Below, one piece after another: positions 9,471-31,506 of a stretch of DNA of 32,855 bases. This stretch comes from a virus. The notes below the pieces were generated by a model, which saw only the letters and a program-made list of their open reading frames with translations, did not search any database and was not told the DNA's origin. Position 1 is the first letter of the stretch, and each line of letters begins with the position of its first letter. Made by a program: the position numbers and the translations under genes. The DNA lies in the IMG/VR virus record IMGVR_UViG_3300030329_000032, positions 1-32,855 of that record. The stretch is one strand, 5' to 3'.

Positions 9471-9717
9471 AGAGAACGATCAAGATAATATTAAAAAACT
9501 TAGGAGGTTAGAAAAGGAAGAGGTAACAAATCCTAAACATTACAATGAGTTAAAGTCTGAACCACTTGATTATATAATAGCAAATGAGTTAGACTTCTTA
9601 GAGGGGAACATAGTTAAGTACGTCTCACGCTACACATACAAAGGTGGAGTAAATGATTTACTAAAAGCAAGGACTTATTTAGAAAAATTAATAGAGAGAG
9701 AGAAAGATGGCAGATAA
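9448..9717 (+). CDS. DUF3310-family protein (89 aa)
   Basis: ATG 9448 follows AAAGGGAGGGATA within the end of the exonuclease gene. The segment VTNPKHYN...[25 protein letters not shown]...[16 protein letters not shown] is the characteristic DUF3310 pattern: a PxHY entry, a central GN-VKY-R helix and a K-G-DL-KA-YL-L helix. This domain is common in phages next to replication and nucleotide genes and is related to part of T7 gp1.7, a nucleotide kinase. A role in nucleotide metabolism fits the adjacent ribonucleotide reductase but is not proven. It overlaps that gene by 11 bases. Confidence 0.85.
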
Positions 9718-11623
9718 GTATTTACCTACACAGTACCAACAATACATCCACCTTTCAAGGTATTCACGTTGGGACTATGATCAGAATAGAAGAGAGACAT
9801 GGAAGGAAACTGTTGATAGATACTTTGATTTCTTTAGAAAACATCTTGAGGAAAATTGTAACTATATTGTAGAAAAAGGTTTAGAAACTAGACTAAAGAA
9901 GTCAGTTCTAAATCTAGATGTAATGCCTTCCATGCGTTGTTTAATGACAGCAGGAAAGGCGTTGGAGAAAGAGAATGTAGCAGGGTATAACTGTGCTTAC
10001 CTACCTATTGACTCTCCTAGATCTTTTGATGAGTTGTTATATGTACTGATGAACGGAACAGGTGTAGGCTTTAGTGTTGAACAAAAGTATACAAACTTGT
10101 TACCTGCCATTCCTAACAAGTTATATCAGACTGATACAGTTATAGTTGTAAGAGACTCTAAGTTAGGATGGGCTAAAGGATTTAGAGAACTAATCTCTCT
10201 ATTGTATAATGGTTTGATTCCAAGATGGGATCTAAGTGGAGTTAGGGAAGCTGGAGCACCGTTGAAAACATTTGGTGGTAGAGCAAGTGGCCCTGAACCT
10301 TTGGATAGCTTATTTAATTTTACAGTCAGCAAATTTAAAAACGCAAAAGGAACTAAGCTAACCTCCATAGAGTGCCATGATATAGTATGTAAGACTGCAC
10401 AGGTTGTAGTAGTTGGAGGAGTACGAAGGAGTGCATTGCTATCCTTAAGTGACATAGGTGATGAACAGATGCGTACCTGTAAATCAGGTGAGTGGTGGCA
10501 TACTGAACCACAGAGAGCACTATCAAATAACTCTGCAAACTACCATGCTCATCCTGATGTTGGTACATTCATGAAGGAATGGCAAGCACTATACAATTCT
10601 AAGTCAGGTGAGAGAGGTATATTCAGCAGTGCCAATGCTAAGAAACACATTGAAAAGTTGGAGGAAAGACGAGAAGCTATAGATGATTTTGGTACTAACC
10701 CTTGCTCTGAGATTATACTCAGACCTAGAGAGTTCTGCAATTTAACTGAAGCAGTAGTTAGACCAAGTGATACTAAGAATACTTTAGGTACAAAGATAAT
10801 GCATGCTACTATATTAGGTACATGGCAGTCTACTTTAACTAACTTCAGGTACTTAAGTAGTAGATGGAAAACAAACTGTGAAGAGGAGAGACTACTTGGT
10901 GTATCTTTAACTGGTATCATGGACTGTACACTAACTAATGGATCAAGTGGAGAGAACTTACCTTCATTACTGACACATCTAAAGGAAGTAGCAGTCTCAA
11001 CAAACAAGACACACGCTGATATACTAGGTATAAACCCTTCAGCTAGTGTAACTTGTGTTAAACCTTCTGGAACAGTAAGTCAATTAGTTGACTCTGCTTC
11101 AGGAATCCACACACGCCACAGTCCTTTCTACATTAGAACAGTAAGATCTGATGTGAAAGATCCCCTGTGTAACCTTCTGGTTGATAGCGGAGTACCACAC
11201 GAGCCGGACATAACTAACCCTAGTAACGTGATGGTCTTTTCATTCCCCATGAGATCCCCTGAGTCATCTCTAACTAGAAAAGATTTCTCTGCTGTCAGTC
11301 AGTTGGAACTCCATAGGTTATACTCTCAGTTCTGGGCTGAACATAAAGTTAGTCAGACAGTTTCAGTTAAGGAAAACGAATGGATAGAAGTCGGTTCATT
11401 TGTATATAAAAACTTTGAAGATATATCAGGTGTATCATTTTTACCTTATTCTGATTATGTTTATGACCAAGCTCCGTATACAGAGTGTTCCGAAGAGGAG
11501 TACAACGAGTTAAAATCTCGTATCCCTCTGATAAATTGGAAGAAATTATCAGAATATGAGATGAAAGATAACACAACTTCATCACAAGAGTTAGCATGTA
11601 CTGCTGGTGCTTGTGAAATATAA
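9707..11623 (+). CDS. Class II (adenosylcobalamin-dependent) ribonucleotide reductase, monomeric type (638 aa)
   Basis: Reduces ribonucleotides to deoxyribonucleotides for phage DNA synthesis without a separate radical subunit. Compared with Lactobacillus leichmannii RTPR, C96 (GYNCAY) corresponds to Cys119, C333 in TNPCSEI to the radical Cys408, and C344 in FCNLTEA to Cys419; the 11-residue spacing of the last two is identical. The C-terminal shuttle pair is C631/C636 (ELACTAGACEI), with the same spacing of five. GTGVGFSVE, VGGVRRSAL and TCVKPSGTVSQL are further signatures. No NrdB or NrdA-type cone is evident. Class II enzymes are frequent in marine podoviruses, and this one would need host or environmental B12. 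Confidence 0.93.
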   Translation: MADKYLPTQYQQYIHLSRYSRWDYDQNRRETWKETVDRYFDFFRKHLEENCNYIVEKGLETRLKKSVLNLDVMPSMRCLMTAGKALEKENVAGYNCAYLPIDSPRSFDELLYVLMNGTGVGFSVEQKYTNLLPAIPNKLYQTDTVIVVRDSKLGWAKGFRELISLLYNGLIPRWDLSGVREAGAPLKTFGGRASGPEPLDSLFNFTVSKFKNAKGTKLTSIECHDIVCKTAQVVVVGGVRRSALLSLSDIGDEQMRTCKSGEWWHTEPQRALSNNSANYHAHPDVGTFMKEWQALYNSKSGERGIFSSANAKKHIEKLEERREAIDDFGTNPCSEIILRPREFCNLTEAVVRPSDTKNTLGTKIMHATILGTWQSTLTNFRYLSSRWKTNCEEERLLGVSLTGIMDCTLTNGSSGENLPSLLTHLKEVAVSTNKTHADILGINPSASVTCVKPSGTVSQLVDSASGIHTRHSPFYIRTVRSDVKDPLCNLLVDSGVPHEPDITNPSNVMVFSFPMRSPESSLTRKDFSAVSQLELHRLYSQFWAEHKVSQTVSVKENEWIEVGSFVYKNFEDISGVSFLPYSDYVYDQAPYTECSEEEYNELKSRIPLINWKKLSEYEMKDNTTSSQELACTAGACEI

Positions 11624-17296: not shown

Positions 17297-18874
17297 ATGA
17301 AACCATCATTAGATCCCACAAAGGGAATGGATACCGAAAGTAGAGTATATACACAAGGATTTAGTGATATTCAACCATCCGAACAAGTAGATATACAACG
17401 GACTTATACTAAGAATTTACCAGCTAGTACAAACGAAGAATTCAGATTGAGTAAGTTACTTAGACGAAGGCTCATGCCATCCTTTTTTAAGTTACTAGAT
17501 TCTAAAGAAACAATAATGTCTGACGAATTAGAGAAGGGTATGCTAGATGCGTTTGGACAACAGCAAAACATTAGTTTGAAGACTAGAGAAAGAATGTCTA
17601 AAAACCAAGTAAAATATTTAAAAGAAGAAACTTCAAAAGGAGGATCAGGGCCACTAGGAGAAAGTAGAGGTAAATGGAGAACTACTTTATTAGAAGAACA
17701 AATTGCCCATAGAAATGTACTAGAGGAAATATTATCTCTAAAAGGTAGACATCATGCTGATTACTACGATCTTTTATTTCATCCTAAAACCGGTGTAATG
17801 ATGAAACCTGAGTCAGAACTAACTGAGTATGAAAAGAACCATGTACTTGGTTACTCACAAGATATTAAAGCATTAGGTAAAATAGAACCATACAAATTAG
17901 CAAAGAAACTCATGGAAAATAATGAGAACTTTGTTAACTGGTTTTATATGGGAGGTCAGGAATCTGCTATTAGTGTAAATGTAGATGGAAAAATACTTCC
18001 TAAACTTGTCCATCATGGGACTTTAAGCAGAGTATCTCCAGTAATAGGATTTTGGGATAGACCTATGGGAATGGATGAAAGAGTAATAGCAGGAATTAAA
18101 AATATAGAAGAAGAAGCTGAGAAGTCTTCTCACTTTGGTACATTAAATCAAGCTATAGATATAGTTATGAATAAGGGGGGAGAAAAAAGTTTAGGCGACT
18201 ATGGAAGATCTAAATGGGATACATTGCATAATGTAGTATACCATCCTGATGACACAGATTCTAGACTTCCAAATGCTAAGTTTTATTCAGGATGGATAAA
18301 GATGAATAAACCATTAAGGATGAAAGATCTTAAATCATTTGAATTTGATCTAATGTTAAATTATCTTAATGATGAAAAACTGATGCCTAACTATAGCTAT
18401 TCAATTTTATCCCCCACAGATCCGACAGGAGGTGCATACACTGGAGGTGATAATCTTAAAGATTTTGAAAACAAAGGTACAGATTTCCCCTTACTAGTCT
18501 CTCATTTTGGACAAGGTACTGCACTAGAACAAGTGTTAAACTATGCTCGTGAACTCTATGAAGAGGATATGACTAGAACAGGAGTAGAGTTAGATGACTG
18601 GAATGAAGAGTGGGGAAACATGTCTTGGGGAGAGAAAGCTAATATTCACTATTATAAGATGCACGGTCTAATCAAGTTTATACAGCAAGACTTAGGATAC
18701 GATGGTATCATATATAACAATGAAGTTGAAGATGCAGAAGGAGGAGGGGATGATTCCTACATTCTATTCCATCCGTGGCAATTTAAGTCTATGTATAACA
18801 AAGGTACATTCAGTAAGAAACGTAACTTCTTAAGTAAAACTAAACGTAAAAATAAATATCAAAAGGTAGCATGA
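17297..18874 (+). CDS. Putative ADP-ribosyltransferase-fold protein between capsid and tail genes (525 aa)
   Basis: ATG 17297 follows AGGAT. Residues 1-230 are hydrophilic and helical with no recognised domain. The C-terminal half reads like the ADP-ribosyltransferase fold found in phage and mobile-element polyvalent proteins: KLVHHGTLSRV (H239-T242), SSHFGTLNQA (H279-A286), FYSGWIKMNKPLRM (F329 on), LGYDGIIYNN (about 466) and DDSYILFHPWQFKS (D485 on), then NKGTF. In that family the HGT and YxS-type strands bind NAD and the last strand holds the acidic residue. The catalytic Glu is uncertain; D485/D486 are candidates. It overlaps the tail tubular A gene by ATGA. No equivalent exists in T7. 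An ejected or intracellular host-modifying enzyme is possible. Fold is inferred by eye. Confidence 0.6.
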   Translation: MKPSLDPTKGMDTESRVYTQGFSDIQPSEQVDIQRTYTKNLPASTNEEFRLSKLLRRRLMPSFFKLLDSKETIMSDELEKGMLDAFGQQQNISLKTRERMSKNQVKYLKEETSKGGSGPLGESRGKWRTTLLEEQIAHRNVLEEILSLKGRHHADYYDLLFHPKTGVMMKPESELTEYEKNHVLGYSQDIKALGKIEPYKLAKKLMENNENFVNWFYMGGQESAISVNVDGKILPKLVHHGTLSRVSPVIGFWDRPMGMDERVIAGIKNIEEEAEKSSHFGTLNQAIDIVMNKGGEKSLGDYGRSKWDTLHNVVYHPDDTDSRLPNAKFYSGWIKMNKPLRMKDLKSFEFDLMLNYLNDEKLMPNYSYSILSPTDPTGGAYTGGDNLKDFENKGTDFPLLVSHFGQGTALEQVLNYARELYEEDMTRTGVELDDWNEEWGNMSWGEKANIHYYKMHGLIKFIQQDLGYDGIIYNNEVEDAEGGGDDSYILFHPWQFKSMYNKGTFSKKRNFLSKTKRKNKYQKVA

Positions 18875-19509: not shown

Positions 19510-22500
19510 ATGCCTTTAATATCTGGGACTATACCAAGTTTGATTAATGGTGTATCCCAACAACCAGCTACACTGAGACTACCTACACAGGGTGAGATAC
19601 AGGAGAACGGTTTATCTCATATAGCTCGTGGATTAGAGAAGAGACCTTGTACTGAGCATATAACAGAAGTAGCTGGTATAACCTCTGCTAATAGTAATGA
19701 TGTGTTTATCCATACTATTCGTAGAAGTGAAGATGAGGCATACGCAGTAATTATCAAAGGTGGAACATCCAGTACTAATACCGAAGTTAAACTAATTGAT
19801 CTCACAGGTTACGCAACTGGTACTGCTGGTAAAGAAGTATATATACTAGATAAGGAACAAGAAGCTAGTTATCCAAGTGGACAAGGTACTACTAGTAGTG
19901 ATGGAATAACATCCTCAGTCCCTATGTCTTCTAATACAATTCCCAATACTTACTTTAAGAATTTCAATAGTACAGATAATATTTTTAGTCCTAATAGCTT
20001 ATCCTCAACTACTATTGCCGATTACTCATTCATTCTAAATAAAACTCAAAAAGTAAAACAAGATAGTAGCTCTCTTCCACCTACTAGACCATATGAATCC
20101 TTATTGTATTACAAGGTAGGAGACTTTGGTGCAAAATATCAAGCAGTTATTACTGAGTGGAATGTAGGGATTGACGGAACTAGATTATCAGATGATTTAC
20201 TTAACTCTGATCTTCCTATTGACCACTCATCTTATAACGCTTCTCATACTGATCCATCTAATGCTTCTCATATATATAGAAGAGCAGTTAGAAACAGATA
20301 CAAAATTGTATACGCAACTCCAGATAATGAAACAGAATCAAGATCTGGTGGAGGAAATGTAGGAAACTCTGCATCCATTAATAACCAAGCATCAGTACGT
20401 GTGAATACTATTGCAAATGCAATAAATAAAGGGGTAGATAGTAGTGATCAAGTATATTTAATAAAAGATAATCAAACTACTAATTATAGAGTATATGTAA
20501 GTAAAACTAATACAGATAATTCTGCTGAATATGCTGATGACAAAGGTGTGAAAAGTAAGGGAGTTGTTACAGGTTCTACTATATCTACATCTTCTGATTC
20601 AACAAATGATGCATCATGGGCAGGAGGGTCTGGTAAAGGATTAACAACAGCTTCAGGAGGATTAATTTCATCAAACTCTAGATTTAAAGTTATTCATGAT
20701 GAAAATACTAGTGTAATCCATATAAAAAATACTACTTATCCTATCTCTGTTGAATTAACAGATGGTAAAGGAGATACTTACTCAAGAGCAGTAAATGGTA
20801 GTGATGAAGTACCTAACTTCGGCTATCTTCCGGGATCAGCAAATATTGAAACAGGATTTGTCGCTAAGATCTCAGGAGACAAAGCAGCAGGACAAGATGA
20901 CTATTATGTAAATTGGACTGGATCGGTATGGAAAGAGGTAGTTCAACCTATGTATCCCGGTGGATTAGCTATAACTGGTAATACAGACTTTACACCTCCT
21001 TATAATTTAAACACAACTTCTTCTTCAGCTACTTATGATGCTGCGTATATATTAAATACTTTAAAGGTCTCACGTTATGTGACTATTGATAAGAGTACAA
21101 TGCCGATGCAATTATATAAGGCATTCGGAAAAGTGGATGGTAATGCTAACTCTGTTTACTTTGTATTAAAACCTGTCCCGTGGGCCGATAGAGATGCCGG
21201 AGATCAAAAAACAAACCCCTTCCCATCCTTTGCTAACTATGATCCAGTTGGTTCTCCTGATGGCGTTTTTACGGTTAATGATATATTCTTTCATAGAAAC
21301 AGATTAGGATTCATATCTGATGAGAATGTTATACTATCTGAATCAGGAGGTTACTATAACTTCTTTCATACTACTGTTCTATCCGTATTAGATACAGCAG
21401 TTATAGATGTAGCTGTGAGTAACAACCAAGTAGCTATCCTAAAGTCTGCCATACCATTTCAGGAAAGCCTTATATTGTTCTCAGATCTCCAGCAGTTCAA
21501 ACTAACGTCTGATGCGTTCCTTACCCCTACCTCAGTAACAGTTGACGTTGCTACCAACTTTGAGACATCTACAGAGGCTAAACCAGTTCCGGCTGGTAAA
21601 ACAATATTCTTCCCATTTCAACGTGGAGCATTCTCAGGTATACGTGAGTACTTCATTAATATATCATCTGAGACTAATGATGCAAACGAGATCTCAGCAC
21701 ATGTACCTGAGTTTGTAGAGGGTACAGTTAAGAAGATGGCGGTATCCTCAAACGAGGAGGTGCTACTCATCCTCTCTGAGACAGACAGGAGACAACTTAA
21801 GGTATATAAGTACTACTATAATGATAAAGAGAAGATGCAGTCTGCATGGTCTACATGGAAATTTGATGCAGAGATAATAGACATGGCTTTCATAGGCTCT
21901 GTAGCATTCTTTCTATTTAGAAGGGGAACTACTATTTACCTAGAGAAACTAAACCTTTCAGTAGATAATGCCACGAGTATAATGGATGACAAGATAGGAG
22001 TCAGGTTAGATAGGAGATATAGATTAACTGCTGTTACTTACACACTAAAGGATTACACTCCTACTCCATCTGCGGCATGGGAAGCAAGTCGAACACATAG
22101 TGGAACAGGACATACTTCTACTCAAACTTCTGGAACAGGTTCAGGTATGACCTTTAATATCACTACAGATAGTAATGGTAAACCTACGTTTGTTATTGCT
22201 TCACAAGGAACAGGATATAACATAGGAGATACAATAACTATTCCTGATCCGGGTAATACAGACAATACGGCAATAGTACATCCGTATCTACTACCATATG
22301 GAGACTCTAACTATGATGAACTAACGTCTACCCAAGTAAAAGTAGATGCCTCTATAGTAGCAGGGTTTGGCCCACTTATTAAAATAAAGAATCTAGATAA
22401 AGGTTACTTACCAAGAGTAGACCAAACATTCACAACTACTTTAAATGAAGGAGTAACATATAAAATAACAGGAGTAGCAGTTGATCCTGCTGATGCTACC

Positions 22501-23076
22501 AAAGCTGAGATAAGGATAACCCCCTCTATTGCTAAAGATTCACCGTGGCCTACTGATACAGTACTTACTTTTGAACCTAGAGAACCTATATATGTTGTGG
22601 AGACAGGAGAACAAGTTAAGGCTTCCGCAGTTGTAGGTATCATGAAGAATGGTTCAACCTTCTCTAAATCGAAGGGAAACACTACTCCAGATGTATTTGC
22701 TGGTATTCCTTATGATTTTAAGTATCAGTTCTCTGAACAGTTTGTAAAGAATAATGATAACTCAATTAGCTCTGGTAGATTACAAATGAGAAACTTTGAG
22801 ATCTCATATGCAAAGTCAGGTAACTTCTATGTAGAAGTAGCACCTAGACCTTATGATGAGTTATACCGTAAGATTAATACAAAGGCTTTCACAGCTAAAA
22901 CAGTAGGTTCTTTAATTCAAGGACAATTACAGTTAGAGACAGGTGTACTACGAGTGCCTGTATATTGTAATAGTAAGGATGCTCGTATAACAGTAAACAG
23001 TAAAGAGTGGCATCCCATAGCTCTACAGTCAGCAGACTGGGAAGCACTGCAAGTACTAAGGAGTCAAAGGATCTAA
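19510..23076 (+). CDS. Tail tubular protein B (nozzle), T7 gp12-like, enlarged (1188 aa)
   Basis: The N-terminus PLISGTIPSLINGVSQQPAT and GLEKRP match T7 gp12 (ISQQPDILRYP, GLQKRP), and FHRNRLGFISDENVILSESG plus YYNFF is the conserved central signature. GGAGG ahead of the start lies in the gp11 end. At 1188 residues it is nearly 400 longer than T7 gp12 (794). Extra material is visible as a Ser/Thr/Asn-rich section in the first 450 residues and a Gly/Thr-rich module at about 860-910 (GTGSGMTFNITTDSNGKP, GTGYNIGDTITI), a beta-type pattern. These may be surface domains for receptor or glycan binding. Forms the tip of the tail channel. Confidence 0.95.
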   Translation: MPLISGTIPSLINGVSQQPATLRLPTQGEIQENGLSHIARGLEKRPCTEHITEVAGITSANSNDVFIHTIRRSEDEAYAVIIKGGTSSTNTEVKLIDLTGYATGTAGKEVYILDKEQEASYPSGQGTTSSDGITSSVPMSSNTIPNTYFKNFNSTDNIFSPNSLSSTTIADYSFILNKTQKVKQDSSSLPPTRPYESLLYYKVGDFGAKYQAVITEWNVGIDGTRLSDDLLNSDLPIDHSSYNASHTDPSNASHIYRRAVRNRYKIVYATPDNETESRSGGGNVGNSASINNQASVRVNTIANAINKGVDSSDQVYLIKDNQTTNYRVYVSKTNTDNSAEYADDKGVKSKGVVTGSTISTSSDSTNDASWAGGSGKGLTTASGGLISSNSRFKVIHDENTSVIHIKNTTYPISVELTDGKGDTYSRAVNGSDEVPNFGYLPGSANIETGFVAKISGDKAAGQDDYYVNWTGSVWKEVVQPMYPGGLAITGNTDFTPPYNLNTTSSSATYDAAYILNTLKVSRYVTIDKSTMPMQLYKAFGKVDGNANSVYFVLKPVPWADRDAGDQKTNPFPSFANYDPVGSPDGVFTVNDIFFHRNRLGFISDENVILSESGGYYNFFHTTVLSVLDTAVIDVAVSNNQVAILKSAIPFQESLILFSDLQQFKLTSDAFLTPTSVTVDVATNFETSTEAKPVPAGKTIFFPFQRGAFSGIREYFINISSETNDANEISAHVPEFVEGTVKKMAVSSNEEVLLILSETDRRQLKVYKYYYNDKEKMQSAWSTWKFDAEIIDMAFIGSVAFFLFRRGTTIYLEKLNLSVDNATSIMDDKIGVRLDRRYRLTAVTYTLKDYTPTPSAAWEASRTHSGTGHTSTQTSGTGSGMTFNITTDSNGKPTFVIASQGTGYNIGDTITIPDPGNTDNTAIVHPYLLPYGDSNYDELTSTQVKVDASIVAGFGPLIKIKNLDKGYLPRVDQTFTTTLNEGVTYKITGVAVDPADATKAEIRITPSIAKDSPWPTDTVLTFEPREPIYVVETGEQVKASAVVGIMKNGSTFSKSKGNTTPDVFAGIPYDFKYQFSEQFVKNNDNSISSGRLQMRNFEISYAKSGNFYVEVAPRPYDELYRKINTKAFTAKTVGSLIQGQLQLETGVLRVPVYCNSKDARITVNSKEWHPIALQSADWEALQVLRSQRI

Positions 23077-23549
23077 TGGGATATACAGTAGATAAAGCTG
23101 GAGTGATGGACTGCTTAGAGTTAGCTCCTAAGATGAGAGAGTCAGATAAACAAGAGATATGGAGTGCAGGAAGATTTACACCTACTAGCGGACTTCATAG
23201 GAGTCTAGAAATATCAGGCGAACATGCGTATACTCTTAAACTAGATGAGGAAGTAGTAGGTATCTTTGGAGTAGCTCCATGTAGAGAACAGCCAGACGTA
23301 GGTATAGTGTGGCTCATGGGTGCAGATAATATGACTACTAACAAGAAAGGTTTTTATAAGGTATCCCAAGAGTATTTAAAGAAGTTCTTAGAGATGTACA
23401 AAACAGTATTTAATTATGTAGACGATAGGAACGTAAGTTCTTCTAAGTGGTTAGAGAGTTTAGGATTTAAAAATCTAGGTACAGAACCCAAGTTTGGTAT
23501 GGATGAAATCCCATTTAATTTATATGTAAAGGAAAGAGATAATGTGTGA
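23076..23549 (+). CDS. Internal virion protein A, T7 gp13-like, GNAT-like fold (157 aa)
   Basis: The start at ATG 23076 shares its A with the previous TAA stop and follows AAGGAGTCAAAGGA; the frame is open further upstream but only inside gp12. The sequence has a GNAT-type layout (AYTLKLDEEVVGIFGVAP, then VGIVWLMGADNM, then a helix and WLESLGFKNLG). T7 gp13 (138 aa) has the same place, size and N-terminal type and is required for assembly rather than being a known enzyme. It overlaps the next gene by 8 bases. Confidence 0.88.
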   Translation: MGYTVDKAGVMDCLELAPKMRESDKQEIWSAGRFTPTSGLHRSLEISGEHAYTLKLDEEVVGIFGVAPCREQPDVGIVWLMGADNMTTNKKGFYKVSQEYLKKFLEMYKTVFNYVDDRNVSSSKWLESLGFKNLGTEPKFGMDEIPFNLYVKERDNV

Positions 23550-24153
23550 TCCAATTTCAGGTGCTATGGCGGCAATGTCTATGCTTCAAATGCAACAGCA
23601 ACAGCAAGCGGCTAAAGCACAGGCAGACGCAACTAATGCTGCATTTGAAGAGAATAATAGAATGCAGAATGAGGCTTACAACAAAGATATGGAAGCCTAT
23701 TGGGATGAAGAGACTGCTATACAAGAACAAATGTTCGACAATGCTGAAGATGCTGCTAAAGCAAAGTTGGAGATGAGGATAGCACAGCAACAAGACGAAG
23801 CTACTATGTTAGTTGCTAATGCTGAGAAAACTGGTGGAGGACAAACACCTCAGACACTACTAGGTAACTTGAGGAGATCCCAGTTAAACACTGCTATAGA
23901 TTTAGATGAATCATACCAGAGGGGAGTAGTCGCATTAAAAGGGGAGAAAGCAGCTTTACAAAGGGATAAACATGTAAGACGCAACCAAGCTATAGGAGCT
24001 ATTAACGGTGCTCCAAGAGCAGGATACCAATCAGAAGGTTCTAAAATGATGGCACTAGGATTAGCAGGAGGCAGTGCATATGTTCAAGGAAATGCACAAC
24101 AAGGTAAAAATATGTGGGGTAAAACAACTCCTAGAAATTATCAATTAACATAA
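23542..24153 (+). CDS. Internal virion protein B, T7 gp14-like (203 aa)
   Basis: ATG 23542 follows AAAGGAAAGAGA. The N-terminus MCDPISGAMAAMSMLQMQQQQQ is a short hydrophobic stretch that runs into a long Gln/Ala/Glu-rich helix with MRIAQQQDEATML, as in T7 gp14 (196 aa), whose N-terminus is also hydrophobic. T7 gp14 is ejected and forms the outer-membrane pore of the DNA-entry channel. Length, position after gp13 and composition agree; sequence identity to T7 is low, as usual for this family. Confidence 0.85.
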   Translation: MCDPISGAMAAMSMLQMQQQQQAAKAQADATNAAFEENNRMQNEAYNKDMEAYWDEETAIQEQMFDNAEDAAKAKLEMRIAQQQDEATMLVANAEKTGGGQTPQTLLGNLRRSQLNTAIDLDESYQRGVVALKGEKAALQRDKHVRRNQAIGAINGAPRAGYQSEGSKMMALGLAGGSAYVQGNAQQGKNMWGKTTPRNYQLT

Positions 24154-24164
24154 TAGGTTAACCA

Positions 24165-25850
24165 ATGGCAGATGCACAAGCAGTTAGTGGAGTTAGAAAA
24201 CAACTTTTACAACGTCAAAGGATAAGTGCTCAAAGAGGGATAAGAGAACCTACTAGACCTGAGAGATACAGAAGAGGTAAAGTATCAAACTCAGGAGCAA
24301 ATTTACAAGCTCCTAGACCTGATCCAACAGCAGGGATGGCTGAAACAGAGAATGCAAAACTTATAGCACAAATGCAGGAGTTTGTATTTGGTAAGGGGAT
24401 GGTTATGGATCAGTATGGACAAGCCGAGAAAGAAAGAGGTATAGCTTCATGGGAAAAAGCTGATGCAGAAACAAGAGAAAGTTATGAGAAAGCTATAAAA
24501 AATGGATGGATAGATAGTAAGGAAAGCCCTTTCTTTAGAGAAGCAGTAACAAATGCTTATACAGATAATCTAACTCATATAGCATCCGTTAAGTTATTTA
24601 CAGATTATGAAAAGTGGCCTGATAGAAATGATCCTTCTAGTGGAAAACTTGATGAATTCTTCCAACAACAGGAAGATGAAATATCTGCTCAAATGGAATC
24701 TATTCCAGATGAAACTCTTCAAAATAGATTCTATGAGCAATGGCAAGTACAGAAACGAGAGTTAGCAAGAAGACACACTACTCATTTGAATGCTAATTAC
24801 CAAGCTAAATCAGAGGATGAGATAGGTAATAAATTTTATAATATGATTAATCAAAATGAGGAAATTCTTGGAAATACTTTTAAAGATAATAATCTTCCTC
24901 TAAACCAAATATTACAAAGCCAAAAATTAACAGAAACAGATTTCCAAGAAGCACAAGATATGTTATCTAGTGTTAAAAAGGATGGTACACTTCCTTCTTC
25001 AGTTATGAAAGATTTAGAACAGAAAGCAATGACTAAGGGAGGAATATGGGAACAAATGTATAAAGGACTAAGTGATAAACCTTTGCCAACTGATGTTCTT
25101 ACATCTATTACTGAACCATCTAGATATAGATCTGATAATTTTGGTGCGTTTAGACCTTCTGAACCTTTTAGATTGAGGGATAAAATAAGAGAAATAACTC
25201 CGGAGGAAGCGGAAATAGTAGGTGTAGGGCTACGATCAGATGGAAGTTTAGTAAATATAACTAAAAACGAGATGGGAGATATAAGAGATAACCAAGCTAA
25301 ACGATTTTTAGACAGCCAAATAGGTAAGGGAGGTGTCACTCCTAATGAATCTCCTGTAGAAACATTTACTAAATTTAACAATATTATAGCTCCCGCACAA
25401 AATAAAAAAGCTAATGACCAGAATCAAAATCTAAAGGAGAGAGAAGCAGAACCTATTATTAAAATGGCTGAAGCACTTAAAAATAATGATAATAAGGCAA
25501 TTCAATCAGAAATAAATAAAGATAAAAACACTGTAACATTAGGAGACAATACTAAAACTGGTGCAAAAGGTTTAATAGCTAAAGGAGGAGGAGCATACGA
25601 TACTTTACCTAAATTTATAGGATTAGCAGAAAATTACTCTGAACCTACTAAAGCATTTGCAAAATCATTTCAGACCTTACCTATTCAAGAACAAAGAAAA
25701 TTATTTACAAACTACCTCAAAGATAATTATACTGGAGGGAAAGGATTCCGAAAGATATGGAATCCAAAGAAGATGCATTTTGTAGGAAAATGGAAAGAAG
25801 CTAAATTTAATTTTGCACATTTTCAAACTTATGTGGAGAGTAAATCATGA
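24165..25850 (+). CDS. Internal virion protein, probable N-terminal half of a divided gp15 (561 aa)
   Basis: A largely helical, charged protein. The region from about residue 60 to 140 (FVFGKGMVMDQYGQAEKERG, YEKAIKNGWIDSKESPFFRE) resembles the T7 gp15 N-terminus, where a charged helix is followed by a segment ending in a hydrophobic Tyr/Ala helix. The C-terminus has AYDTLPKFIGLAENYSEPTKA and a Lys/Arg-rich end. T7 gp15 is 747 aa; this and the next gene overlap by ATGA and together total 1166, so the role appears divided between two genes. gp15 builds the periplasmic part of the DNA-entry tunnel. Start ATG 24165 has only a weak AGG upstream. Confidence 0.7.
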   Translation: MADAQAVSGVRKQLLQRQRISAQRGIREPTRPERYRRGKVSNSGANLQAPRPDPTAGMAETENAKLIAQMQEFVFGKGMVMDQYGQAEKERGIASWEKADAETRESYEKAIKNGWIDSKESPFFREAVTNAYTDNLTHIASVKLFTDYEKWPDRNDPSSGKLDEFFQQQEDEISAQMESIPDETLQNRFYEQWQVQKRELARRHTTHLNANYQAKSEDEIGNKFYNMINQNEEILGNTFKDNNLPLNQILQSQKLTETDFQEAQDMLSSVKKDGTLPSSVMKDLEQKAMTKGGIWEQMYKGLSDKPLPTDVLTSITEPSRYRSDNFGAFRPSEPFRLRDKIREITPEEAEIVGVGLRSDGSLVNITKNEMGDIRDNQAKRFLDSQIGKGGVTPNESPVETFTKFNNIIAPAQNKKANDQNQNLKEREAEPIIKMAEALKNNDNKAIQSEINKDKNTVTLGDNTKTGAKGLIAKGGGAYDTLPKFIGLAENYSEPTKAFAKSFQTLPIQEQRKLFTNYLKDNYTGGKGFRKIWNPKKMHFVGKWKEAKFNFAHFQTYVESKS

Positions 25851-27664
25851 CGACTCCAAATCAAACTAAAGAAAACTGGAATAAATTTAATAAGTTAGAC
25901 ATAAATTTAAAACAACAAAGAGATGAACAAACTGGTGCTTTAACTTTTACACAAGACCTAAATCATACAATAGAGGAGCTAGGTAAGCGAGGTTTTAAAT
26001 ATGGAACAATAAATAAACTAGCTGGTCAAACTATTGCTGAAACTGCTAGAAGGAAAGGAGACCGAAGATACTTAGATATATTAGACAATATCACAACTCC
26101 TGGTGGAGTTTATGGTCACACAGTAGAAGGCCAAAAACTAAAGTGGGGAACAGTACGGCAAATAGAAAATGATGCAGAACAAGATGAAAGGGCTGAGAGA
26201 GCAAGGTATAACCATGAAAGAACACTTCTCCTAGATAGACACAAGATAACACTTGGAGAATTAATAGCAAGGAAAGCATCATTAACAGATCCTAATGAAA
26301 TACAAGAGGTAGAACAAGAGATTAATGATGCACTAATGGCGGCTGGAGTAGATGGAGTAGGTGGACAAGTACAAGTGTATCATGATAGATTAACTAAAGG
26401 ACTAGCTTCTACGACACAAGGAAAAAACAGGATACTAGGTTTGTATGATGTTATGAATCCAGAGGATGCAGACGAACAAACTGTTCATGACTATTTAGTA
26501 GAAGTGTTAGCTGATCCCTCTACGGATTCAACTCCAAAATCAAGACAACAAAGGTTAGCTACAGCATTTGAAGGGATGAATATTACTCTTAATGATGATG
26601 CGAAAGCTCTTGTTAAACAAATGGAACAAGAGTATGTAGCTCCTACAACTACTGAGTTATACAAAGATGAAACCAAAGTATTAAAATATATAGAAGATAA
26701 TCATCTTGCTAGATTCGGTTTGGATAGAAGTCCGATGGGTAGAGCATTAAGAAGAAATGAAGTACCTATACCAGAAGGTATTCATAGAATAACTCAGCGT
26801 TATAAAAGAAAACTAAGAGGAGCTTTTATAGAAGAGTTTGGTAAATATAGTAACCAATTAGAAGGAAGAAGTGAAGATGAAGGTGGGGCAAGGTATGGAT
26901 TTGGTAGTTGGACTGAAGGAGAAAAAGAAGCCTTCTTAGGGTCAGATTCTTACAAAAAGAAAGTTTCAAACCTTATTTCGGAATATGATGCAGAGATGCA
27001 AAAAGCAGTTGATAAACATCTGGGATCAACACAAGTTAAGAAAGATAATACAAAAGATATACAAAATATGATGATGCCCGCAAAAAATGAAGGGCCAAAA
27101 GAATATGAAGATTTACAACGAATGATATACGAAGATTCTGACTCTGCATTATACAGTCCAGTAGATACTTATGAAAGATTTAAAAAAGCTATCTTCGGAT
27201 TAAGTATGGGAGCAACAGAAGAAGCTAAAGAAATAGCAAACCTACATTTTTTTAGTGGAGATATGCAAGATTGGTTTGATGAAGCTGTGGGTGGCTCAGA
27301 TGATCCAAAAGTAAAACAAAAACAATTAGAAGCCTTATGGAACTGGGGCATGTATCTAATTAAAGGGAGACAAATAAAACTTATAGAAATAGATCCTAAC
27401 TTATCTACAGAACAAAAGGAAAAAAGGATTAAAAGGTATCAAAAAGCTAAGTATCCATTTCCCAAAGATATAACCAGTTTTATTGGAGCAAAGAAAATAA
27501 TAGAAGAGGAGACAAAGAAAAAGAAAAAGAAACCTAAAACAAAAAAGCTAAGTTCTTTAAGTAAACCTGAGTCTGTAAAAACAGAAAAGAAGGAAGAAAA
27601 ACCAGCATTTCAAGATGGTGTATTAGATTTAAAAGTAGTATGGAAACGTCTATTCGGAGAATAA
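25847..27664 (+). CDS. Internal virion protein, probable second half of a divided gp15 (605 aa)
   Basis: ATG 25847 overlaps the previous stop (ATGA); GTGGAGAGT precedes it. Residues 55-80 (LAGQTIAETARRKGDRRYLD then DNIT) and the helical ERAERARYNHERTLLL read like the repeated helical hairpins of core proteins. The C-terminal 90 residues are Lys/Glu-rich (EEETKKKKKKPKTKK), with DLKVVWKRLFGE at the end; T7 gp15 also ends basic. It is not a simple continuation of the previous frame, because both have proper starts. No transglycosylase or other enzyme motif is seen. It is placed between gp15-like and gp16-like genes. Confidence 0.65.
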   Translation: MTTPNQTKENWNKFNKLDINLKQQRDEQTGALTFTQDLNHTIEELGKRGFKYGTINKLAGQTIAETARRKGDRRYLDILDNITTPGGVYGHTVEGQKLKWGTVRQIENDAEQDERAERARYNHERTLLLDRHKITLGELIARKASLTDPNEIQEVEQEINDALMAAGVDGVGGQVQVYHDRLTKGLASTTQGKNRILGLYDVMNPEDADEQTVHDYLVEVLADPSTDSTPKSRQQRLATAFEGMNITLNDDAKALVKQMEQEYVAPTTTELYKDETKVLKYIEDNHLARFGLDRSPMGRALRRNEVPIPEGIHRITQRYKRKLRGAFIEEFGKYSNQLEGRSEDEGGARYGFGSWTEGEKEAFLGSDSYKKKVSNLISEYDAEMQKAVDKHLGSTQVKKDNTKDIQNMMMPAKNEGPKEYEDLQRMIYEDSDSALYSPVDTYERFKKAIFGLSMGATEEAKEIANLHFFSGDMQDWFDEAVGGSDDPKVKQKQLEALWNWGMYLIKGRQIKLIEIDPNLSTEQKEKRIKRYQKAKYPFPKDITSFIGAKKIIEEETKKKKKKPKTKKLSSLSKPESVKTEKKEEKPAFQDGVLDLKVVWKRLFGE

Positions 27665-27669
27665 AATAA

Positions 27670-30600
27670 ATGGCTGAACAAGTTATACTAGAGGAAGAAG
27701 ATAGTACTCTTCCAATACCTGAAGAAGAGGTTATAGAGGAAGATATAAGTCTAGATGAAAGTCCTGATACAAGGTATGACGAATTAGGAGTTAGTGAGTT
27801 TGAACAATTACTGATGGAAGATTCCCAAAGACTCTCTAGTGTACCTGAGTTTGAACAAGAGGAGACAGAGGATTACGAAGCTCCATCAGGTGTTGTAGGA
27901 TATGGTCTACAAGCTCTAGGAGGTGTGTTAGACATGATAGAGAACACAGGAGACCTTCTAGGAGTAGATGATCTCCATAAAGCAGTAGAAGAGAAGGTAG
28001 AGTCGTTAAACATTGATTCCCATAAGTTAGTGTTTAATATAAAAGGATTTGAAAACTATGATCCTAATAGACCTACTATATCCTTTATGAGTGACTCAGA
28101 ATGGGATAAGCTACATTCAGAAGATAAAGTCTCGTTTATGCCTACAGTTGAAAAGTCTGATGATGTAGGACACCAGTTAACCAGAAGTTTGTCAAATGTA
28201 GTAGCAGGATTAATACCAGCCGCTAGAATAATAAAGGGAGTAAAAGGTGTGGCTACAGGAGTAGGCATAGGTACTGCCACTACTACCTCATCTAAAGCAG
28301 TCAAAGGTCTAAAGAAGTTTGGAGACATTACTGCCGTAGGGACACTTGGTAGTGTATTCTCATTCAAACCTTATGAGCCTAGAATGGCTAACTCTATGAT
28401 AGAGTTTGTAGAGAACACTCCATTTGAAGTTAGTCAACCCTTCTTTGAATGGCTTCAAGCATCTGATGATAACTCAGAAGTAGAAGAGAGATTTAAGATT
28501 GCTTTGGAATCCATGTTAATGGATGGTATACTAGTTGGTGCATACTCTACTTTCTTTAAGGTATTCAAGAGAGAAAGAAGCCTAATGAAAGCTGAAGCTG
28601 GTGGTGCTACACCTCAACAGTTAGAAGAGATTAACAAAATAGGGATCAATACTGTAAATAGCGGTGAAGTCTTAGATGTTGTCTATCCTCCAAGTAGGAC
28701 ACCTATCAAAGAACAAGCTAGGGCAGAAGTCCAAAGTTTAAAGAATGCATCAAAAGACTCAGAAGAATTTGTTAAATTAGGTGATGTAGATAACACAGCA
28801 GGACAAACAGTTCTTCAAGCTAGTACACTATCTGAGACAGGAGTAACTAATGTAGTCAAGTCATTAGCAAAAGCTATGGCTACGGGAGATGAAGTAGGTG
28901 CATCTACTGCTATGTCTTTAGTAGGGAGAGACCCATTGATTAATATTAATAGTATTGATGATATAGGTGTTAAGAATGTAATAAATGCTATTTCAAACGA
29001 ACTAGATCGTGAAGCCGCTTTACTTGGTAGGGTTACTTTTGATGCAAAAGGAAACCCACTTCGTGTAGACCAGATAGGACAAAAGACATACAAACAAGCA
29101 GAGAAAGAAGGACTTTCATATGCTAATTATGTCAGAAGGGCATCTGGTCTTGATAAAGATGCTTTTAAAAATCTAGCCGATTCACTAGCTATTCCTGAGA
29201 AAGAGTTGTTTACTCTTATGAAAGCTGATAGGCTCATGGCAGATCAAATTGGGTCAAGAGTATTAGGATGGCAAATGGTATTAGATGACCTTACTAAACA
29301 GTTTTATAATAGTTTGCAAGGTAAAGACTTTGGAGATGAGTTTGTTCAACTAATGGCGGCAAAACATATTGATGTTATAACAAAGCTACACCAAGCATTT
29401 GCAGAGTTACCTAGAGGATTAGGTAGGGGATTAGCGTACCGAAATATTAAGATGAAGAATAAGTACCTTAATAAAAATGGTACGATGAAACCTGATATTG
29501 AATTATCTGATGTGGAGATACTAAAGAGAAAGGAGTTTCTAAGAAAACAAATTCATGGTAAGGGTTTAAATAGGGAAGTACTTGAAAGTATAAATGCTAT
29601 ACTAGGTACTCCATCAGCTAGACTAAGATCAAGAAGATTAAAAGAAGCATTAAAAGGTAAAAGGAGGATAGGCAAAGCTGTTCAAGAGGTATACAGAGGT
29701 ATGCTTCTAGCTAATATAAAGTCTATGACTACTAACTTGCTTGGGAATATGATGGAGACAATGCTTATTCCTACTGCTAAGACAATAGGACATATATCAA
29801 CATTTAATCTGAAAGGTGCTAAAGAAGAACTTGGTTTTGTATTTAATATGTTAATGAGTACTAGGAGAGCTTTCTCAGCAGGAATGGATGCTTTGATACA
29901 TGAGAGAAACCTATTAGACCCACTACGAACAAAAGCCGAGACTCCAAGCGGTGACGTAGTTAGAGGCTTCTATATGCAAATGGATAAGGCAGTTGATGCA
30001 GGATACTGGCATCCTCAAAACTGGATTCCGCTTGTAGTTAACTCATTTGGTAAAGTATCTAGACTATCTCTTAGAATACTAGGAGCACAGGATGAGTTCT
30101 TTAAGATGCTTACCTACAATGGTAAAGCAATGTCAAAGATTACAAAGGCTATGCCTGATAACTTATCTAGAGCAGATAAGAAAGCCTTTATAAGAAGAAA
30201 CCTAGACCATTTCTACGATGAAGCAGGAGAAGCAGTTGATAGAGACTTACTAGAGTACTCAAGACGAGCTACGTTCCAAGAGGGACTGGAGAAAGGATTT
30301 GCAAATAATCTACACCAACTTGTAGATAAACATCCTATGACATTAGGACTTATATTTCCATTTGTTAGAACTCCAGCTAACTTAATTAGTAGGTTTATCC
30401 AACGTACTCCTGTAGCTAACTTTGCTTTAAGTAAAAGAACTAGAGACATGTGGACATCTGGTGATCCATCCCAAAGGGCAGAAGTTATAGGTAATACAAT
30501 TATGGGGGTAGGATTATATGGTACTGCGGTATCATATGCTATGGATGGAACTATAACAGGAGCAGGGCCAATAGATCGTGAGAAAAACCAACTATGGAGA

Positions 30601-31506
30601 GCCGCAGGATTTAAACCATTTTCTTGGAAAGTAGAAACTCCAAGAGGCCCAGTATGGATTAAGTACGATAGATTAGAGCCATCTTCAATGCCCTTCTTAT
30701 ATGTAGCTACACTACATGAGAACCTCTATAGATTCAGAGAAGATCCTGACTCATTAGAAGATGCTATTGGGTTATTTATAGCATGTACAGCAAAAACTAT
30801 GGTTGATAGAACTTGGTTAAGAGGAGTTAAAGCTCTAATGGATGGAGTAGATAGTGCAATACATAATGAAAATCCTTCTGATATTCCAGTTTCTATAGCT
30901 AAGAATTTTATTCCAGCTATTCCTGCTCAAGTACATAGATTAAGCGGAATAGCAGAAGAGGAGTCTGGTGCATACACATTTAGACAAGCGTTAACTTGGC
31001 AAGAGAAGATGATGGCTAAGTTACCCCCAATGGAAGGTTATGACGCAGTTAAATATAACTGGTTAACAGGTAAGCCTATGATGCTTCCTACTGGTAGTGA
31101 CTTTGGTTTAGATATGCACTTTGAAGAACCAGATAAGTATATGCAGGAATTACTAAGGTTTGGACAGACTATACAACCATTAAGTAAAAGACTTAGTGGT
31201 ATTGAGTTATCCTCCGATCAATACTCTAGACTTAGTGAGTTAACTGGTACAACTAGAATAGAAGGTAGAACCTTAATGGAATCTCTACAGGATCTAATGG
31301 ATTCACCAGAGTATGATTATGATGAAGATAGGATATACCATGCTGACTTTCCTTCTCCACAAACTACAGCAGTTAAATACTTAGTCAATGCTTATAAGGA
31401 ACAAGCTAGAATGAATCTGCTCCAAGAAGATGATGAACTATTTAAAGAATGGCAAAACGTAACTATGGAAAAAGCAGAAGTAGGAGCAGGATTATTAAAT
31501 CAATAA
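27670..31506 (+). CDS. Internal core protein, T7 gp16-like (1278 aa)
   Basis: Size and position match T7 gp16 (1318 aa), the largest ejected core protein. Visible signatures of this family include GMLLANIKSMTTNLLGNMME (about 677-696) and HPMTLGLIFPFVRTPANLIS (about 888-907), a motif common to the large ejection proteins of podoviruses. The N-terminus is very acidic (VILEEEDSTLPIPEEEVIEE) and I see no soluble-lytic-transglycosylase motif there, whereas T7 gp16 begins with that domain. A Gly/Val/Ala-rich stretch near 178-212 (VVAGLIPAARIIKGVKGVAT) could contact the inner membrane. It is followed by the 21-bp promoter-like repeat. Confidence 0.85.
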   Translation: MAEQVILEEEDSTLPIPEEEVIEEDISLDESPDTRYDELGVSEFEQLLMEDSQRLSSVPEFEQEETEDYEAPSGVVGYGLQALGGVLDMIENTGDLLGVDDLHKAVEEKVESLNIDSHKLVFNIKGFENYDPNRPTISFMSDSEWDKLHSEDKVSFMPTVEKSDDVGHQLTRSLSNVVAGLIPAARIIKGVKGVATGVGIGTATTTSSKAVKGLKKFGDITAVGTLGSVFSFKPYEPRMANSMIEFVENTPFEVSQPFFEWLQASDDNSEVEERFKIALESMLMDGILVGAYSTFFKVFKRERSLMKAEAGGATPQQLEEINKIGINTVNSGEVLDVVYPPSRTPIKEQARAEVQSLKNASKDSEEFVKLGDVDNTAGQTVLQASTLSETGVTNVVKSLAKAMATGDEVGASTAMSLVGRDPLININSIDDIGVKNVINAISNELDREAALLGRVTFDAKGNPLRVDQIGQKTYKQAEKEGLSYANYVRRASGLDKDAFKNLADSLAIPEKELFTLMKADRLMADQIGSRVLGWQMVLDDLTKQFYNSLQGKDFGDEFVQLMAAKHIDVITKLHQAFAELPRGLGRGLAYRNIKMKNKYLNKNGTMKPDIELSDVEILKRKEFLRKQIHGKGLNREVLESINAILGTPSARLRSRRLKEALKGKRRIGKAVQEVYRGMLLANIKSMTTNLLGNMMETMLIPTAKTIGHISTFNLKGAKEELGFVFNMLMSTRRAFSAGMDALIHERNLLDPLRTKAETPSGDVVRGFYMQMDKAVDAGYWHPQNWIPLVVNSFGKVSRLSLRILGAQDEFFKMLTYNGKAMSKITKAMPDNLSRADKKAFIRRNLDHFYDEAGEAVDRDLLEYSRRATFQEGLEKGFANNLHQLVDKHPMTLGLIFPFVRTPANLISRFIQRTPVANFALSKRTRDMWTSGDPSQRAEVIGNTIMGVGLYGTAVSYAMDGTITGAGPIDREKNQLWRAAGFKPFSWKVETPRGPVWIKYDRLEPSSMPFLYVATLHENLYRFREDPDSLEDAIGLFIACTAKTMVDRTWLRGVKALMDGVDSAIHNENPSDIPVSIAKNFIPAIPAQVHRLSGIAEEESGAYTFRQALTWQEKMMAKLPPMEGYDAVKYNWLTGKPMMLPTGSDFGLDMHFEEPDKYMQELLRFGQTIQPLSKRLSGIELSSDQYSRLSELTGTTRIEGRTLMESLQDLMDSPEYDYDEDRIYHADFPSPQTTAVKYLVNAYKEQARMNLLQEDDELFKEWQNVTMEKAEVGAGLLNQ

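Follow-up and report, generated by a model that had tools for sequence, protein, structure and literature searches.

Introduction

The periplasmic tunnel of phage T7 is formed by gp15, a single chain of 747 residues encoded between gp14 and gp16 (PDB 7K5C and 6YT5; core in 9JYY). According to the account given in PMC8954989, gp15 forms an octamer within the capsid core and, once ejected, a hexameric tunnel, it bends from an arch to a rod on leaving the capsid, with residues 305-306 as the ejection hinge, and the N-terminal transglycosylase of gp16 lies beside the tunnel; the same account describes gp15 homologues as hard to recognise. Some gp15-like proteins carry a cell-wall enzyme of their own, as is reported there for SP6 gp36 and K1E/K1-5 gp35 (PMC8954989). 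Here we analyse a virus record of 32,855 nucleotides, IMGVR_UViG_3300030329_000032 (hereafter the window, taken at its full length), in which the place of gp15 is occupied by two overlapping open reading frames (ORFs), A and B. We argue that A and B probably form a gp15 of two chains, with an exchangeable module at the cut site that would face the cell wall.

Results

A and B stand between a gp14-like and a gp16-like gene, the position at which gp15 is expected. The original prediction had described two ORFs of 561 and 605 residues with an ATGA overlap, and both coordinates and lengths were exact (Table 1). It had also proposed that they divide the gp15 role, the first one resembling the gp15 N-terminus, and the homology that we found supports both proposals. 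Indeed, when the two proteins were compared by hhalign with a pooled profile of single-chain gp15s, A residues 58-234 corresponded to residues 40-216 of the gp15 of locus L031 (probability 98.8), and B residues 29-141 to residues 220-335 of the same protein (96.6); counted in profile columns, the values were 99.1% for A and 97.5% for B. Pairwise searches with phmmer aligned A 75-228 with HTVC041P gp15 51-209 (E-value (E) 5.8e-6), and B 43-172 with CRP-125 gp15 233-361 (E 5.1e-6 over the full sequence and 7.8e-6 for that stretch alone).

Two hidden Markov models (HMMs) were built from single-chain gp15s, cut at L031 residues 30-215 (N model) and 220-345 (middle model), and run on all the A, B and gp15 sequences. 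The N model matched window A at residues 82-232 (E 1.3e-12) and the middle model window B at residues 33-136 (E 5.6e-14). Over the whole set, the N model recognised all A proteins and left every B at E 1.6 or above, and the middle model recognised all B proteins that possess their N-terminus and left every A at E 1.2 or above; the B fragments of L021 and L023 gave no real match to either. Both models recognised 48 of the 60 distinct single-chain gp15s at E < 0.01, and neither recognised the gp15s of T7, P-SSP7, jiawei and HTVC105P.

Since each conserved part of gp15 occurs once only, A and B are, as judged from their sequences, colinear halves of one gp15 in which nothing is doubled, that is, a split and not a duplication. 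A tandem duplication, with A and B as diverged full-length paralogues and a hetero-oligomeric tunnel, would account for the gp15-like sizes of both proteins (single-chain relatives span 454-1199 residues), for the fact that both match gp15s, and for a single weak, colinear match between A 442-520 and HTVC200P gp15 295-367 (domain E 0.03). However, the N model is absent from B and the middle model from A (best cross-match E 1.2), the A tail (residues 241-561) does not exceed hhalign probabilities of 2.2 with five gp15 profiles and 0.2 with B, A as such reaches at most 0.9 to B, and B is devoid of the gp15 N-half. Duplication is thus largely refuted and very unlikely.

The original prediction had further seen "other helical repeats" in B, and had suggested a tunnel assembled with an extra subunit. 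Neither idea agrees with the mapping: the N-terminal part of B directly continues gp15 from residue ~220, and the tunnel would therefore be made of a cut subunit, plus a tail module added on A, rather than gain an unrelated one. The same prediction would have been overturned by a clear homology to proteins other than core proteins, and none was found in Pfam, PHROGs, NCBIfam, PDB sequences or phage records. Indeed, neither A nor B had a meaningful score in the first four of these, no gp15 came out of PDB profile searches that used the A and B alignments, and tblastn of A and B from the window, or from L024, gave no match in 50,697 phage records.

Table 1. Position of the features discussed in the text (window coordinates, unless a locus is named).
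Feature	Position	Strand	Span	Basis
ORF A	24165..25850	+	561 residues	ATG start
ORF B	25847..27664	+	605 residues	ATG start
ATGA, B start overlapping A stop	25847..25850	+	4 bases	sequence
GGAG, Shine-Dalgarno-like, ahead of B	25835..25838	+		sequence
gp15 N-half	24165..24866	+	A residues 1-234	hhalign, gp15-region HMM, AlphaFold2 model
Added C-terminal tail	24867..25850	+	A residues 235-561 and stop	no match to gp15 or B
Leader outside the gp15 match	25847..25930	+	B residues 1-28	B-gp15 match begins only at residue 29-33
gp15 middle region (L031 gp15 220-335)	25931..26269	+	B residues 29-141	hhalign 96.6; HMM 5.6e-14
Presumed gp15 C-terminal part, Lys-rich near the end	26270..27664	+	B residues 142-605 and stop	inferred from position and helical AlphaFold2 model
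gp14-like internal virion protein	23542..24153	+		Pfam T7_gp14 2e-11, 44.6 bits against a cut-off of 27; PHROG 805
gp16-like internal virion protein	27670..31506	+	1278 residues	PHROG 6651 "internal virion protein" 4e-37
Endolysin-like insert between gp15 N-half and middle region	L061 2087-2533		149 residues between regions	endolysin PHROG 2.1e-27
Endolysin-like insert between gp15 N-half and middle region	L070 6222-6674		151 residues between regions	endolysin PHROG 4.9e-10
Endolysin-like insert between gp15 N-half and middle region	L096 1674-2237		188 residues between regions	endolysin PHROG 1.2e-9

Is the two-ORF form shared by other phages? Used alone as IMG/VR queries, window A, B and gp16 returned no near relatives, and a pattern search with the A N-half in GTDB genome contigs returned no relative. 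The A N-half as query identified 15 IMG/VR contigs; A runs off the contig in three, and an overlapping stop/start was found in all 12 others (in L105, the contig ends B soon after the overlap). Further queries (A7 and A6) added no contigs. From these contigs and the loci of the alignment query described below we kept 12 split sequences, namely the window and 11 contigs, among which L022 and L107 are near-copies and L114 has its B cut by the contig end. The overlap is 4 bases long (ATGA) in seven of these 12 and 1 base long (TGATG or TAATG) in five. A single gp15 broken by a sequencing or assembly error, which nothing beyond the unusual architecture would favor, is refuted by this repetition, as the 11 other contigs carry ten sample numbers and the B proteins of some are just 25-50% identical; we regard such an error as practically impossible.

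This shared overlap also agrees with the original view that the arrangement is not a simple frameshift. The claim that each ORF has its own start and ribosome binding region stood for both starts and, for the binding region, for B; it is weak for A, where no Shine-Dalgarno-like 4-mer occurs within the 15 bases scanned upstream of the start. Programmed frameshifting or stop bypass, by which the two ORFs would give one long gp15 chain in the virion, is highly improbable. B does lie in a constant frame relative to A (+2, i.e. -1), and a heptamer of slippery form is found at most 90 bases from the stop in 4/12 sequences; a minor fused product is conceivable. However, these heptamers differ in place and are missing from 8/12 sequences, the window included, in 10/12 sequences the open part of the B frame ahead of its ATG is just 0-6 codons long (16 in L022 and L107), and the window, L113 and L114 have a conserved A tail in common. 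With two ORFs, their own starts and no conserved frameshift signal, the locus does not have the single polypeptide of described gp15s.

With the gp16-like protein as tblastn query we obtained 64 phage records; in all 18 named records (17 of these 64, and T7) exactly one ORF of 454-837 residues lies between the gp14-like and gp16-like genes, a call which rests on annotation and size. An alignment query gave 413 IMG/VR relatives, the best 80 of which were scored by a size rule: 48 have one gp15 ORF (39 distinct sequences), four have two ORFs, and 28 are unscorable, 26 having no complete upstream ORF pair on the contig and two another layout. The four two-ORF loci fall within the seven top-listed of these 80, and L021 and L023, among the 26 incomplete loci, carry B fragments of the split type.

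In a gp15 N-half tree (52 sequences), the 12 split sequences formed one group (support 100/98), with the single-chain L034/L058 as sister; each of the 200 bootstrap trees required a single change. In a gp16 tree (57 sequences, quick method), the seven scorable split sequences again fell in one group, together with three of unknown state (Shimodaira-Hasegawa-like approximate likelihood ratio test 100). For both trees the root was placed at the midpoint, and both gave long-branch warnings. The split sequences, from uncultured viruses, thus make up a single clade nested within the single-chain gp15s, and the most economical history is that an ancestor with a single chain was cut once. Crude counts of the ratio of nonsynonymous to synonymous polymorphism (pN/pS) gave 0.31 for both A and B in the pair L113/L114, and 0.46 for A and 0.19 for B in the pair L024/L026, which suggests that both ORFs are under purifying selection.

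Some single-chain gp15s are enlarged elsewhere. Those of L031 (4613-7729), L035 (4577-7696), L045 (2185-5415) and L052 (3520-7119) have 1038-1199 residues, the surplus following the middle region and not lying at the junction, and no Pfam domain was found in those of L031, L045 and L052. The gp15s of L034 (6706-8934) and L058 (6445-8673) have ~70 additional residues inside the middle region (213-403 span 123 model positions).

What does the free end of A carry? The window A tail is common to L113 and L114, and partly to L112. Ten A proteins were scanned for domains (window, L020, L022, L024, L026, L102, L103, L111, L112 and L113; L107 and L114 were left out), and two of them have a LysM above the Pfam cut-off of 20.9 in their tails, L024 (28.1 bits) and L103 (36.2 bits). 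Comparison of close pairs is informative on this point. Between L024 and L026 the identity reaches 91% for the A N-half and 93% for B, with tails alike for the first ~100 residues only; the tail then ends in the LysM in L024, and in L026 in a short module common to L022 (phmmer 4e-19), despite B proteins just 36% identical between L022 and L026. L020 and L022, which are 96% identical in the N-half and 98% in B, have unlike tail ends. By these alignments, the A tail ends are exchanged between near-identical phages. Tail matches to Met_gamma_lyase, Pesticin_RB, HTH_45 and similar models were all under the cut-offs and were not trusted.

Additional domains also occur at the same junction within single chains. 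Among the 48 single-chain gp15s having both regions, the gap between them is at most 81 residues in 45; the other three (L061, L070 and L096) contain an insert of 149-188 residues with endolysin-like matches (Table 1). L061 and L070 are sisters with inserts 56% alike, and the L096 insert is of another type, so that the inserts represent about two events. The L096 insert matches the PDB entry "Lysozyme" 1am7 (E 0.0026), which we take to be the phage lambda lysozyme. The L070 insert alone and a three-sequence profile gave no PDB match, and Pfam Transglycosylas stayed below its cut-off.

Finally, we compared the predicted fold with that of T7 gp15. The AlphaFold2 (AF2) model of A has a mean predicted local distance difference test (pLDDT) of 65 and a predicted template modelling score (pTM) of 0.39, residues 121-220 being in blocks of 80-96. 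Its two best VIA rows are both T7 gp15, 6yt5_A (Z 8.8, root mean square deviation (rmsd) 3.1, 125 residues aligned) and 7k5c_A (Z 8.6, rmsd 3.2, 128 aligned), and A residues 78-211 align to T7 gp15 57-189. Further VIA rows include the PhiM1 ejectosome (Z 7.8, rmsd 8.6), the cyanophage A4 ejectosome (Z 6.3, rmsd 8.1) and the T7 core 9jyy_G (Z 6.2). Foldseek placed 7k5c_A first (probability 0.89, E 0.03) and 6yt5_A second (0.66, E 0.11), the next row having a probability of 0.05. We consider this match of the A N-half to the T7 gp15 fold supportive, not decisive. The B model is helical (pLDDT 74, pTM 0.37); its BFVD matches are all weak and include one internal virion protein, ranked 23rd (E 0.84). 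A cut at the T7 ejection hinge was rejected: as A residue 211 equals T7 residue 189, the cut near A 234 falls at about T7 residue 210 and not at 305-306, which holds as far as the A-T7 fold alignment holds.

Discussion

The position, the sequence homology and the clade together indicate that A and B are a real and conserved two-chain form of a known protein, for which the homology is strong. Among the closest counterparts are the gp15s of the named phages CRP-125, CRP-171, HTVC041P and Gjalp and of IMG/VR relatives such as L034/L058, which share with A and B the synteny and the sequence homology in N-half and middle region, but consist of one ORF, with neither a stop/start nor an A tail at ~216-220. 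T7 gp15 is alike in its position, its mostly helical structure prediction and, probably, its N-half fold; unlike A and B, it is one chain, with no added tail and no sequence-level match. Among the matches listed from the open-licence full-text literature, none dealt with a split gp15 in its title or abstract.

Several observations weigh against the two-chain gp15 with its exchangeable module. The first concern the T7 link, which is made by fold and for A only, T7 gp15 being unreachable by sequence from either protein: by hhalign, the single T7 sequence stays below a probability of 1 with five gp15 profiles, and the A and B families reach 2.8 and 0.2 with T7. Moreover, a Z of 8.8 is of a size reached by chance in helical proteins, the unrelated 9sdy_C comes within 1 of it at Z 8.0, and the Foldseek E values are just 0.03 and 0.11. 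Among the matches listed for the B model there is no T7 gp15, only generic helical proteins. The second concern the homology, since the hhalign scores are uneven between subprofiles (98.4, 97.4, 96.9 and 22.8 for A, and 92.7, 85.0, 0.3 and 48.1 for B, with the L031, CRP, L034 and L044 groups, respectively). B gives only 48-63% with the L044 group and 0.2-0.3% with L034/L058, the closest unsplit relatives. B residues 176-605 have no significant hhalign profile match to gp15, and most of B past residue ~141 is assigned to gp15 by position only. The third concern function. A Shine-Dalgarno-like site precedes B in only 4/12 split sequences, and the window A tail has no meaningful Pfam or PHROG match and neither LysM nor hydrolase, so that its role at the cell wall rests on the relatives. 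The presence of A and B in the virion, their assembly and the function of the tail are deduced.

Bearing these points in mind, the following scheme can be proposed for the two-chain gp15. An ancestral single-chain gene would have been cut once, between the N-half (to ~216) and the middle region (from ~220), and the cut closed by a stop codon overlapping the new start codon; the direction of this change depends on the midpoint rooting. As the stop and start overlap, B would probably be translated from the same message as A, by coupling or re-initiation. A and B would most likely be packaged with gp14 and gp16, enter the periplasm and re-associate into the tunnel, restoring together a gp15 protomer. 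The free C-terminus of A would then place its module level with the cell wall, the cut site doubling as a payload site.

What is the module for? The two LysM tails and the three endolysin-like inserts at the same junction suggest that the junction module probably serves in dealing with peptidoglycan. SP6 gp36 and K1E/K1-5 gp35 are comparable in that a gp15-like protein bears the enzyme, but are single chains of 978-982 residues, and the SP6 gp36 lysozyme lies at 770-905, near the C-terminus. The additional domains of L061, L070 and L096 lie at the same junction, but within a single chain, and are of endolysin-like type. A more specific proposal is that gp15 has a general payload site for peptidoglycan enzymes or binders, that one clade was cut there, making the payload on the free C-terminus swappable without touching the tunnel, and that the window tail is a new peptidoglycan-engaging module. 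We find this plausible and advance it tentatively.

Alternatively, gp15 could be split as described, while the A tail plays no part at the cell wall and only fills space in the structure, or binds DNA or a scaffold. This is somewhat doubtful, yet a real possibility: eight of the ten A proteins scanned, that of the window among them, have no cell-wall domain above the cut-off, and the tails alone have pN/pS values of 0.54-0.84, above whole A or B in 5/5 pairs (two of which have unlike tail ends). On the other hand, the LysM tails and the inserts point to peptidoglycan, and tail ends swapped between otherwise near-identical phages are as expected for a host-facing part.

With an exchangeable module at the cut of gp15, the cell-wall step may have shifted from gp16 to A, a suggestion that relies on the relatives and is made because the window gp16-like protein has no Pfam domain above the cut-off (in a scan where T7 gp16 was not run as positive control for the transglycosylase). 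Again, no Pfam domain above the cut-off was found in the gp16 of L024, L027, L034 and L111. A common payload site would tie the passage of the cell wall to gp15 in phages with such gp16 proteins. More generally, the occurrence of such a cut in nature suggests that gp15 does not need its N-half and its remainder in one chain, and the cut would mark where the tunnel tolerates breaks and additional domains. The sequences named here are offered for the study of tunnel passage through peptidoglycan.

Other features of the window and its relatives

Across the window the gene order is T7-like: RNA polymerase, primase-helicase, DNA polymerase, portal, scaffold, capsid, tube and nozzle, followed by gp13-like, gp14-like, A, B, gp16-like and tail fibre genes. 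The Lys-rich end that the original prediction had ascribed to B is borne out by the sequence. In L076, a gp16-like ORF of 2604 residues, double the usual size, starts at 3388 downstream of a 946-residue ORF, and is possibly a fusion.

A 525-residue ORF between the capsid and tube genes (17297-18874) has no Pfam match at E 0.001, and its sole PHROG match is 21376, of unknown function (5.9e-9). The ORF at 9707-11623 is ribonucleotide reductase-like, three models of this enzyme matching it, each below the Pfam cut-off. The nozzle (gp12-like, 19510-23076) has 1188 residues, and the Pfam model of 794 positions is matched in four stretches. Large nozzles, identified by position, are also present in the split-clade loci L020, L022, L024 and L026 (1065-1229 residues) and in L034/L058 (1077 and 978 residues); the other complete ones listed have 769-851 residues, with one ORF of 480.

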